A stretch of 64,000 bases of DNA from assembly GCF_003254585.1 (NCBI RefSeq), contig NZ_QJGZ01000031.1:62001-126000 (forward strand), written 5' to 3'. A program made the position numbers and the translations under genes. Source of the stretch: Flavobacterium sharifuzzamanii (GTDB lineage Bacteria > Bacteroidota > Bacteroidia > Flavobacteriales > Flavobacteriaceae). Shown piece by piece: positions 32,162 through 35,784 of the stretch (position 1 is its first letter; every line of letters begins with the position of its first letter). The notes beneath the pieces were generated by a model. The model did no database searches. It saw only the letters and a list, made by a program, of their open reading frames with translations, and was not told where the DNA came from.

Positions 32162-33409
32162 TTAATTATTTAGAGCATCTGCTTTCTGGTTATACTGAAA
32201 AACATTATCCCAAAGTTCATCAATGGCAATAAGTGCTTCATTTAGCGGAATCACATCCCATTTACCATTAGTTTCTAATCCTAAACCAATGCTTTTTAAT
32301 TTTAATAAAGCATCATTTACGTCAAAATCTAAATCGGTATTTAGTTTGGTTTTAAACCAAGATTCAATTTGATTGTCTAGTTCTTCGGCTGTTAAAGAAT
32401 TTTCACTTTCGTGTAAAAAAGTATAAGCCAGAATGGTTTCTTTTAAAGCTTCCTCTTCAGAAGAATTTAATAAAGAATAAAACGCGCCGCTATTGTTGCC
32501 AACATTCTTAAAATATAAACTATCAGAAAGTGTCTTAGAATATCTGATTTTCTTATTTATGAAGTTATTGTATTGACGGAAACAATATGCTCCTAAAAAT
32601 CCTAGAGCAATTAAGCCTTGATTTAAGGAAGTTTTACTGTTTAATAGATCGATGGTTTCGCCAGTCTGATAAGCTTCATACATATTTATCAGGGCTGGAA
32701 TCACCTTGGCACTTAATAACGAAAGCCCACCAAAAACACCTGGAACCCAAAGCAGCAATTTATCTCTGAGAGACATTTTCGGAATAGCGTTCGGGAAAAT
32801 GGTTTCAAGGTCGTTTTTAGGAACACGTTTAAAGATTTTTAATGCAATAGAGCCTGGATCGATTGGCATTTTACCTAATTTGACTTTCTTTTCTTTCAGG
32901 TAATCTGCTTCGCTGTAATTAAGATAAATAAGCACTCGATCATAATATTCAATTTCGACTTCTTTGGTCCAGAAAAAGTATTTTTTGACCTTTTCTTTCG
33001 CTTTATGATGTCCGCGTGCATAGAGTTCGAAATCTTTAAAAGCATTAAAATCAATAGAAAGGTTTAACCCGATCAAATCAGATTCATTAAAGGCGTCGTT
33101 TAAAGCTTTCTGATTAATTCTGTAGTAATTGCCACGTTCGAGAACTTTCAGCAGTGTTTCTTTAAAAATTGGGAAATTGCTTTTATTTATAAACTGTTCG
33201 CGTTCTTTTTCGCTTAAATCTGGATCGTAGAGTGCGTAATGCTGTTTTAGATTTCGGTTAAGGTTAAAAGATTCGTAATGATAATAGTGTTCGATAATTT
33301 CGAACAGCTTCTTAAAATCATCAACCTTTTGCGGATTTTCAGAAAAAGCGGAAATTTGCTGTTCCAGTAAAAATTCTTTGTTAAACGGAATATAATGTTC
33401 TCTAGTCAT
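32162..33409 (-). CDS. DUF3754 (TMEM143-like) membrane protein
   Basis: 415 aa. N-terminal soluble region (1-215) begins with REHYIPFNKEFLLEQQ; a membrane hairpin follows (about 219-245 and 262-280). The C-terminal region (about 310-400) starts with LKETILAYTFLHESEN and has a winged-helix-like pattern. This layout fits the DUF3754/TMEM143 family, known from bacteria and mitochondria, function unknown. It is first gene of a two-gene operon with DUF2199. Its promoter's -33 element overlaps the repeat-rich flank at 33467. Confidence 0.8.
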   Translation of the reverse strand: MTREHYIPFNKEFLLEQQISAFSENPQKVDDFKKLFEIIEHYYHYESFNLNRNLKQHYALYDPDLSEKEREQFINKSNFPIFKETLLKVLERGNYYRINQKALNDAFNESDLIGLNLSIDFNAFKDFELYARGHHKAKEKVKKYFFWTKEVEIEYYDRVLIYLNYSEADYLKEKKVKLGKMPIDPGSIALKIFKRVPKNDLETIFPNAIPKMSLRDKLLLWVPGVFGGLSLLSAKVIPALINMYEAYQTGETIDLLNSKTSLNQGLIALGFLGAYCFRQYNNFINKKIRYSKTLSDSLYFKNVGNNSGAFYSLLNSSEEEALKETILAYTFLHESENSLTAEELDNQIESWFKTKLNTDLDFDVNDALLKLKSIGLGLETNGKWDVIPLNEALIAIDELWDNVFQYNQKADALNN

Positions 33410-33440
33410 TCGGACTTAATTTCGTGGCTTTTACAGAATG

Positions 33441-33470
33441 CAAAAATACTGCTTTTTTCTTAGGTGCAAA
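33441..33470 (-). promoter_or_regulatory. Promoter of the DUF3754-DUF2199 operon
   Basis: Minus-strand TTTG (33470-33467) and TATTTTTG (33448-33441) are separated by 18 bp, matching the Bacteroidota TTG-N17-23-TAnnTTTG consensus. Confidence 0.65.
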
Positions 33471-33498
33471 GGAGCAGAGGTACAAAGAAACAGAGGTT

Positions 33499-33529
33499 TG
33501 TCATCCTGAGAAACGAAGGATCACACAAG
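33499..33529. repeat. R1: single arm of the GTCATCCTGAG repeat
   Basis: Contains GTCATCCTGAGAAACGAAGG and ATCACA, then diverges; the right arm is missing. Confidence 0.8.
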
Positions 33530-33572
33530 AAACTCCGTAAAGATAATGAGATAGCAATTTTCTCATGGTTTT

Positions 33573-33670
33573 GTCATCCTGAGGAACGAAGGATCACAGA
33601 AGTAGCTCCGCATAGAGAGTCTCCAAACTTTGTCGATTCCCGAGTGTGATCCTTCGTTCCTAAGGATGAC
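33573..33670. repeat. R2: complete 98-bp GTCATCCTGAGG palindromic unit
   Basis: The left arm 33573-33598 and the right arm 33645-33670 are 26-bp inverted repeats with one mismatch. The ~46-nt loop contains AGTCTCCAAACTTTGTCGAT, also found in R3 and R4. It lies 43 bp upstream of the GIY-YIG gene. Confidence 0.92.
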
Positions 33671-33713
33671 AAGATTGCTTAGTATATAAAAATAATGTAT
33701 TTTCGTACAAAAA

Positions 33714-34031
33714 ATGTTCAATCCACAAAAAGGGTATCACACTTATTACATCTACATTATTACAAATAGACATCGTTCAACATTTTACATCGGTGTGACT
33801 CAAAATTTAAAAGTAAGGCTAAAGCAACATAAAGAAAATATTGAGAATAATAATAAAACGTTTGCATCTAAATACGGAATAGAGTTTTTGGTTTATTATG
33901 AAAAATTCATCTGGATTCAAGAAGCAATTGCAAGAGAAAAGGAATTGAAAGGGTGGATTAGGGCTAAGAAAATTGATTTGATAAAAGAATTTAATCCAAC
34001 TTTTGAATTTCTAAATCATCATTTTGAATAA
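33714..34031 (+). CDS. GIY-YIG nuclease-domain protein
   Basis: 105-aa single-domain protein. The signature appears as YYIYIITN (11-18) and FYIGVTQNLKVRLKQH (24-39). Tyr25, Gly27 and Arg35 are in place, and the catalytic Glu candidate is in IAREKELKGW (Glu75). This is the small URI/UPF0213-like class, close to the catalytic half of UvrC and homing enzymes, with no DNA-binding domain. A -7-like TATTTTCG (33698-33705) precedes the ATG. Complete copies of one palindromic repeat lie on both sides (R2 left; R3 and R4 right), suggesting that the gene and repeats belong to one element. Confidence 0.9.
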   Translation: MFNPQKGYHTYYIYIITNRHRSTFYIGVTQNLKVRLKQHKENIENNNKTFASKYGIEFLVYYEKFIWIQEAIAREKELKGWIRAKKIDLIKEFNPTFEFLNHHFE

Positions 34032-34043
34032 TGCGTTCAGTTT

Positions 34044-34142
34044 GTCATCTTGACGTAAGGAAAGATCACACAGGCAGCTCCACATAGAAAGTCTCCAAAC
34101 TTTGTCGATTCCTGAGTGTGATCCTTCGTTCCTCAGGATGAC
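34044..34142. repeat. R3: palindromic unit downstream of GIY-YIG
   Basis: Same family and orientation as R2. The left arm is degenerate (GTCATCTTGACG...), the right arm 34117-34142 is intact, and the loop is nearly identical. It begins 13 bp after the GIY-YIG stop. Confidence 0.9.
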
Positions 34143-34182
34143 AGAATAATGTGGGTGTTCTTTGTTAAAGACTATTAGTTTT

Positions 34183-34281
34183 GTCATCCTGACGCAAGGA
34201 AGGATCACACAAGCAGCTCCACATAGAAAGTCTCCAAACTTTGTCGATTCTCGAGTGTGATCCTTCGTTCCTCAGGATGAC
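34183..34281. repeat. R4: palindromic unit in tandem with R3
   Basis: 99 bp, left arm GTCATCCTGACGCAAGG..., right arm 34256-34281, same loop. R3 and R4 are separated by 40 bp. Confidence 0.9.
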
Positions 34282-34576
34282 AAACAAAAAAAACTTTGCG
34301 AACTTTGTGTTATCCTTTGCGCTCTTTGCGGTAAAAAAACGGTCAGATAGATAAACAAAAAAAGTGAAATTTCTAATCGGTACCAGCGATTTGAAATTCC
34401 ACTTTCTGTTCCAAAAAAAAAGTGACAAAAAATTAAAAAGCTCTCTATATAGAAAACCTTGCCTAAACTAAAAAAATTATTCAGAACAATATTAGCTTAA
34501 AATTAAGTGATGACTACGGGTATTTATACCTGTTTTTGTAAACGGTCAAAGATTTTGAGTAGTTGGGATGCAAAGG
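34282..34576 (-). terminator. Gene-free gap with a minus-strand hairpin (34361-34405)
   Basis: AAAGTGGAATTTC pairs with GAAATTTCACTTT on the minus strand, with an inner AATCG/CGATT extension and a T-run. It may end the transcript of the gene at 34577. The rest is AT-rich, with CTTTGCG-type short repeats near 34300-34330 and no gene. Confidence 0.45.
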
Positions 34577-35373: not shown

Positions 35374-35784
35374 ATGAGCACAGCAACAAAACCAAAACAT
35401 ATCGGCAGAAATATCAGCCGAATTAGAGAGCTTAGAGGTATGAAACAAGAAGCGCTTGCTATTTCTATTGGAGTAAGCCAGCAATCTGTTTCTAATATTG
35501 AGGGAAGTGAAACCATCGATGAGGAAAGATTAAATAAAATTGCTGAAGTTTTAGGCGTTTCTGCAGAGACTATCAAGAATTTTAGTGATGAAGCCGTTTT
35601 TAATATTATTGGCAATACAGTTACTAATCACGATAATTCTGCTTTATTTCAATTTCACCCAACATTCAATCCAATCGAAAAGTTGATTGAATCTTATGAT
35701 GAAAATAAGAAACTTTATGAGCGTTTATTAGAATCTGAAAAAGAGAAGATTTCTTATTTGGAAAAGTTGCTTAAAGAGAAATAG
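35374..35784 (+). CDS. XRE-family helix-turn-helix regulator
   Basis: 136 aa. An N-terminal XRE/Cro-type HTH (about 10-68) includes RIRELRGMKQEALAISIGVS and QQSVSNIEGSE, the recognition helix region. A helical C-terminal part (about 100-136, YDENKKLYERLLESEKEKIS) is a probable coiled coil for dimerisation. Targets unknown. A frame on the opposite strand (35211-35615) is its shadow. It has a strong -7 box and a bidirectional terminator, so it stands alone. Confidence 0.9.
   Translation: MSTATKPKHIGRNISRIRELRGMKQEALAISIGVSQQSVSNIEGSETIDEERLNKIAEVLGVSAETIKNFSDEAVFNIIGNTVTNHDNSALFQFHPTFNPIEKLIESYDENKKLYERLLESEKEKISYLEKLLKEK

Follow-up and report, generated by a model that had tools for sequence, protein, structure and literature searches.

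A GIY-YIG nuclease gene enclosed by GTC-tagged hairpin repeats in Flavobacterium sharifuzzamanii: probable partner enzyme of a REP-like repeat family

We describe an element of Flavobacterium sharifuzzamanii in which the gene for a small GIY-YIG nuclease is surrounded by palindromic repeats carrying a GTC tag. It lies in a stretch of 64,000 nucleotides (contig NZ_QJGZ01000031.1, positions 62,001 to 126,000; hereafter the window). We consider it probable that GIY-YIG proteins are the partner of repeats of the CGTC type, and that the window element is a nuclease-bearing copy of a family resembling the repetitive extragenic palindromic (REP) elements, though with an unrelated enzyme. The basis for this is the association of nuclease and repeats, its recurrence across phyla, the match between nuclease clade and repeat stem, element boundaries running from one hairpin head to the other, a nuclease remnant inside a repeat unit and, for one repeat family, a correlation between copy number and gene. 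We infer from these patterns that the enzyme may bind, cut and mobilise the repeats; cutting and moving by the GIY-YIG protein is the likeliest reading of the sequence data.

A first-pass annotation of the window had reported three palindromic units and a single arm around a 105-aa GIY-YIG gene, and had likened the layout to a REP system in which a GIY-YIG protein replaces the RAYT enzyme. The three units, running from GTC to GAC, are found where it had placed them, and so is the gene; the arm is present as a half unit, which starts at 33500 and not at 33499. The features are as follows:

33500..34281, + strand: composite nuclease-repeat element, from the left half unit to the right end of the last unit
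33500..33543, + strand: half unit, a single GTC head (stem ATCCT, loop GAGAAACGA) with a partial spacer
33573..33670, + strand: unit 1, a complete inverted doublet (REPIN-like) 5' of the gene; fold of -31.9 kcal/mol, z -10.2
33714..34031, + strand: bare GIY-YIG nuclease gene, 105 aa (PF01541, E 7.8e-17)
34044..34142, + strand: complete unit 2, 12 nt past the stop codon of the nuclease gene; fold z -2.1
34183..34281, + strand: complete unit 3; fold z -6.1

The z-scores compare the units, folded as single-stranded DNA, with shuffled sequences; the half unit reaches only -0.7. The common orientation noted earlier was confirmed, the two other units matching the middle one directly at 80% and 94% identity. 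A known structured RNA was also considered for the locus and rejected: with a cut-off of E 1, Rfam had two matches in 33300-34500, both far under their gathering scores. For the nuclease AlphaFold2 predicts a single compact domain (mean predicted local distance difference test score, pLDDT, 91.5). Its top matches among solved structures are the UPF0213 proteins 1ywl and 1zg2, with Slx1 next; UPF0213 proteins are likewise single-domain GIY-YIG proteins, but the titles of their structure entries mention no link to repeats. Residues Y14, Y25, G27, R35, H39, E75 and N94 are unchanged in all 16 aligned nuclease sequences, and we take the catalytic residues to be among them. Domain match, fold and conserved residues thus agree in placing the protein in the GIY-YIG superfamily, although at 105 aa, and with no separate DNA-binding region, it differs from the GIY-YIG homing endonucleases of introns and of the phage Seg type.

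The clustering of repeats and nuclease in the window is no local coincidence. The 12-mer GTCATCCTGAGG occurs 39 times in the 5.26-Mb genome (its backward control not once), and 26 of these 39 exact matches form inverted pairs with starts 84-99 nt apart, so that hairpin doublets are dispersed in the genome. Within the 64-kb window heads are confined to the nuclease locus, as scanned with the head definition and six 10-mer patterns. Chance clustering of the repeats is excluded by the 12-mer counts, the distance profile and controls with other open reading frames (ORFs).

Nuclease homologues (E 1e-3 or better) are present in 95 of 121 Flavobacterium genomes. Sixty loci, each of up to 20 kb, were taken for association tests and assigned to group A (62% identity or more to the window nuclease), group B or the distant group C. 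In groups A and B a head opens with an unpaired GTC tag, followed by the first arm of a 5-bp stem; a loop that usually starts with GA (mostly 9-11 nt in Flavobacterium group A) leads to the complementary arm, and a C-initial tail closes the head. Stem sequences vary among families while their pairing is kept: at 135 of 186 near-gene sites, picked irrespective of pairing, all five stem positions pair, and over 30 distinct sites 90 of 150 stem pairs form, whereas 2000 shuffles average 64.9 and never exceed 80. The palindromes described in the first-pass annotation are real and recur genome-wide as units of ~98 nt made of two inverted heads, with conserved heads and variable spacers, but the underlying unit is the GTC-tagged mini-hairpin, which is found singly, as an inverted pair or as a pair enclosing the nuclease gene. 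In a set of 183 loci, which counts some places twice (some named loci come from genomes that also appear under G handles), heads lie within 500 bp on both sides of the gene at 104, on one side at 57 and on neither at 22. At 55 of the 104 two-sided loci the nearest heads are on the + strand upstream and the - strand downstream, where one quarter is expected. The tag reads TGTC in Flavobacterium and CGTC in Azospirillum, Neisseria and G228 (G000 denotes the source genome of the window; further G and L handles denote other genomes and loci).

The association with the nuclease is strong in groups A and B. Near the 20 group A nucleases, heads of the GTCAT type reach 3.45/kb within 500 bp, against 0.017/kb at 4-10 kb. 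A strict head is found within 600 bp of 19/20 group A nucleases and 7/192 other ORFs (p 2e-20), and of 23/26 group B nucleases and 10/283 other ORFs (p 7e-24); pooled, this gives 42/46 nucleases against 17/475 ORFs of the same loci. Among the best 80 of 577 confirmed matches (named loci), a head is present within 600 bp at 75, and at 49 both flanks carry one. Intergenic position was rejected as the cause, since heads per intergenic kb are far higher near the nuclease than far from it in both groups (A, 5.49 vs 0.078; B, 5.70 vs 0.093; for group C, 0.25 vs 0.102). The source genome has eight GIY-YIG matches, three of which belong to the window group and adjoin three different repeat families: GTC-ATCCT in the window, GTC-ATTCC at C6:549028 and GTC-ATTTC at C19:173674. 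The remaining five GIY-YIG genes are without GTC heads in their loci of ~3.2 kb each (0/5). Taken together, the partnership of nuclease and repeats is well supported.

The enzyme of the classical REP elements, RAYT, is an HUH tyrosine enzyme whose REP tag is GTAG (PMC3733652). It might be argued that such RAYT/IS200 tyrosine transposases mobilise the GTC repeats as well, as proposed for GTAG REPs, the nuclease being a bystander; all 12 genomes tested have Y1_Tnp matches, and Di Nocera et al. (2013), in the portion of the text available, leave the possibility open (PMC3733652). None of the 20 Y1_Tnp loci sampled, which are the stronger matches of these 12 genomes, has a GTC head within 600 bp, and neither the GTAG tag nor a cognate Y1 HUH transposase flanked by the repeats was found. 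RAYT was rejected as the partner on these grounds, and we regard its involvement as highly improbable.

Nuclease subclades differ in repeat stem. We placed the dominant flanking stem as a label on 87 nucleases in a tree of 103, which is built on few columns and has half of its inner branches poorly supported; the label needs 24 parsimony changes, whereas 2000 global shuffles need at least 44 and 5000 shuffles within 19 genomes at least 28. This difference in stem also accounts for the mixed outcome of an earlier expectation, namely that homologues would be flanked by GTCATCCTGAGG: homologues of groups A and B are flanked by repeats far more often than other ORFs, but the adjoining repeats are often of another sequence.

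The boundaries of the elements point in the same direction. Genome G228 holds two nuclease copies that are 91% identical over ~349 bp, from the CGTC of one head to the GACG of the other, with unrelated flanks; this defines an element of ~349 bp with the GIY-YIG gene as its sole gene. In contrast to DDE insertion sequences and miniature inverted-repeat transposable elements (MITEs), it has no DDE transposase, and no target-site duplication is visible at either copy. Two copies in G214, 99% identical, have a common right end at a head. Over non-syntenic pairs, which are not independent of each other, homology ends within 10 bp of the outer head edge in 330/591 cases on the right and 92/400 on the left, against 28 and 14 for random points. 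The duplicate at L217 spans flanking genes and is uninformative on boundaries. At the window locus itself, homology to G006 (91% identical flank) ends at 33499, the base before GTC, and restarts at 34289, with ~360 bp of unrelated sequence in between; for G015, which is without the window element, it ends at 33470 and restarts at 34351. In Sinorhizobium meliloti one repeat unit retains the C-terminal 27 residues of the nuclease (93% identity), as expected from an internally deleted copy. At the gltA-lpxB site of Sinorhizobium K101 the nuclease is absent and hairpin remnants are kept. As a separate observation, G006, without the window element, has a ~200-bp tandem duplication of another intergenic repeat (TTTGCG type, judged by eye) at L245 ~1630-1990.

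A number of observations weigh against this reading. To begin with the tree, 16 of the 103 nucleases have no stem label and the 103 loci collapse to 56 synteny clusters; part of the clade-stem signal is vertical inheritance of whole loci. With one locus per synteny cluster the global test holds (19.7 changes against a shuffle mean of 28.9 and minimum of 23), but the within-genome test is weak, its shuffles matching the observed value in 186/2000 cases with about seven informative genomes. The pairing of nuclease and stem is for this reason strong over the tree as a whole; within genomes, when sites are independent, it is no more than suggestive. Furthermore, group C has strict heads at only 2/14 nucleases (against 2/125 other ORFs); several of its loci have tagged repeats of a different shape. 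The window element is found at the same site in F. ginsenosidimutans and G042, and given this synteny the nuclease gene may be mostly vertical. Finally, empty sites, for which a comparison of strains had been suggested in the first-pass annotation, were not recovered. Sixteen unit sites of G000 were sought in G006 and G063; 15 orthologs were compared, nine of them as alignments, in which L227 is common to G063, L240 has a related unit in G006 and the others have no ATCCT unit in the relatives aligned. No clean empty site was seen in either genome, the intergenic DNA being too diverged for clean joints, nor was a clean unit insertion seen in 100 kb of S. meliloti Ak57 against K101, one 50-kb half of which is alignable.

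The same alignments bear on a homing-like process, in which cleavage by the nuclease at related hairpins would be followed by copying of the repeat, alone or together with the gene, through double-strand-break repair or gene conversion, with no excised intermediate. GIY-YIG enzymes are known homing nucleases, and at three of the nine aligned sites an ATTTC unit or half unit stands in the relative where G000 has an ATCCT unit (L231 in G006; L228 in G063 and G006; L001 in G006). However, elements also occupy sites that are not homologous, where the homology between them stops at the heads, so that insertion into unrelated sequence is needed at least sometimes. We consider this process unlikely as the general explanation.

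Copy number tracks the nuclease gene only partly, in comparisons that ignore phylogeny. The ATTGC repeat has a median of 28 copies where the genome encodes a nuclease of 75% identity or more to the cognate one (13 genomes) and of 1 in the other 108, as had been anticipated; at a cut-off of 61% identity the medians are 11 (25 genomes) and 0 (96 genomes). Nonetheless, G103, G099, G014 and G056 hold 51, 33, 20 and 17 ATTGC copies without a matching gene, and G039 has a matching gene with zero copies. The ATCCT repeat is present in 17/43 genomes whose nuclease shares 62% identity or more with that of the window, against 2/78 others. Its highest counts are in G000 (47) and G042 (38), the two genomes seen to have a group A nuclease flanked mainly by ATCCT; G033, with 6 copies, has a distant nuclease (L075) with ATCCT heads of a different loop. 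Counts of 36, 25 and 24 are found in G077, G102 and G083, with no mainly ATCCT-flanked nuclease among those sampled. Such repeat-rich genomes without a matching gene, together with the presence of several GIY-YIG genes in one genome, would fit a scenario in which the hairpins owe their spread to something else and are no more than preferred insertion sites for small selfish GIY-YIG genes. This we hold to be quite improbable, given that the stem follows the nuclease clade, that homologous elements at different sites end in heads and that copy number follows the gene in one repeat family. Overall, the earlier interpretation is partly supported and is right in substance: a REP-like system with a GIY-YIG protein instead of RAYT is strongly supported by the flanks of the homologues and by copy number.

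Similar arrangements are observed outside the genus. A tblastn search of a plasmid collection gave 32 matching records, 15 of which were examined. Their best hits share 34-48% identity with the window protein, and by a lax hairpin definition 14 carry tagged hairpins no more than 500 bp from the nuclease, the exception being Novosphingobium. Homologues within equivalent hairpins were found in rhizobia, Azospirillum, Neisseria, Aeromonas, Planktothrix and Spirosoma. The nuclease occupies the gap between sufB and sufC in Azospirillum, lies between two glycoside hydrolase genes in Spirosoma and stands beside drmA in Planktothrix. In N. gonorrhoeae an intact ORF of 94 aa lies amid 16 heads of the dRS3 pattern, ATTCCC(N8)GGGAAT, in 3.3 kb. 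Among Bacteroidota a homologue is present in 148/247 genomes; under the same lax definition 19/23 loci have a hairpin (18/22 outside the genus), where about one third would be positive by chance given a far density of 0.39/kb. Nuclease arrays are seen in Bacteroidota (L328, L326, L324, L327), with three tandem copies at a period of ~415 bp in G206, and G337 carries 34 heads around three nucleases within 12 kb. Between hflX and mazG, S. meliloti Ak57 carries a further, different GIY-YIG gene (L321 10862-11152), 54% identical to the first.

That the pairing recurs in many bacteria points to the missing partner enzyme of a large repeat class. CGTC-tagged REPs are known from five phyla, and dRS3 of Neisseria is among them, as are repeats from S. 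meliloti and A. lipoferum. They are said to 'apparently lack a dedicated transposase', no enzyme being assigned to the set in the available portion of its description (Di Nocera et al. 2013; PMC3733652); dRS3 has 646-725 copies per meningococcal genome (PMC3898611). Like the repeats found here, the published ones combine an unpaired CGTC, TGTC or CCTC tag with an AT-starting stem, a C-starting tail and inverted dimers, but their stems of 8-9 bp and loops of 4-5 nt differ from the 5 bp and mostly 9-11 nt of Flavobacterium group A (PMC3733652). The tag and the head-to-head inverted dimers are both present in our repeats, and 12 of the 15 plasmid-collection loci also have the published stem and loop lengths (for example ATCCCCGC/GAAG and ATCCTCGGG/CTTGA); Planktothrix, Spirosoma and Novosphingobium fall outside these lengths, and the stem of Sphingobium starts with AC. 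With the REP/RAYT and REPIN systems, as far as the available text describes them, the repeats share inverted hairpin doublets with a spacer, specific linked enzyme genes and several groups per genome (PMC3116915), the difference being a GTC tag and an unrelated GIY-YIG protein here against GTAG and an HUH RAYT there. The N. gonorrhoeae nuclease amid dRS3-pattern heads likewise recalls the NIME/dRS3 elements, although their published account, in the part available, has a phage integrase acting on dRS3 and no GIY-YIG protein (PMC3898611). The term GIY-YIG is absent from the main texts of PMC3733652 and of the RepRanger, HUH-superfamily, Coxiella MITE and REPIN papers. In the open-licence literature, where one could be missed, no publication linking GIY-YIG proteins to REP-like repeats was found; PMC9465073, in the part available, names both terms merely as table entries for both genes.

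With somewhat less confidence, we favour the wider view that the CGTC-REP superfamily as a whole, in Bacteroidota, cyanobacteria, rhizobia and Neisseria, has GIY-YIG nucleases as its dedicated enzymes. These nucleases would represent a second, independent hosting of REPIN-like repeats, by GIY-YIG instead of HUH enzymes, with co-evolution of nuclease clade and hairpin and with dRS3/NIME as one branch. The mechanism we propose starts from the head, in which an unpaired (T/C)GTC tag precedes a short stem-loop and a C-initial tail. Two inverted heads with a ~45-50 nt spacer would form the non-autonomous unit, and a head pair enclosing the GIY-YIG gene the autonomous one. The most probable action of the protein is to recognise, in DNA that is single-stranded or extruded, the tagged hairpin belonging to its family and to nick beside GTC, after which the head-to-head segment would spread to new sites via replication or repair, with no target-site duplication. 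A cognate nuclease would make the spread of CGTC REPs directly testable, and would give a function to many genes whose sole annotation is 'GIY-YIG nuclease family protein'. It also suggests an origin of REP-like systems around two unrelated types of enzyme.

Two further observations concern the source genome. Of the three nuclease elements in G000, two have small helix-turn-helix genes downstream that resemble each other (81% DNA identity), at 35374-35784 of the window and at 2498-2926 of L013. In addition, the GIY-YIG genes of L010 (G000:C5:279377-279589) and L012 (G000:C5:326240-326437) each lie between a tRNA-like stretch and its partial duplicate, with direct repeats of 65 nt and 33 nt, respectively, and without GTC heads; both may be selfish genes that target tRNAs.
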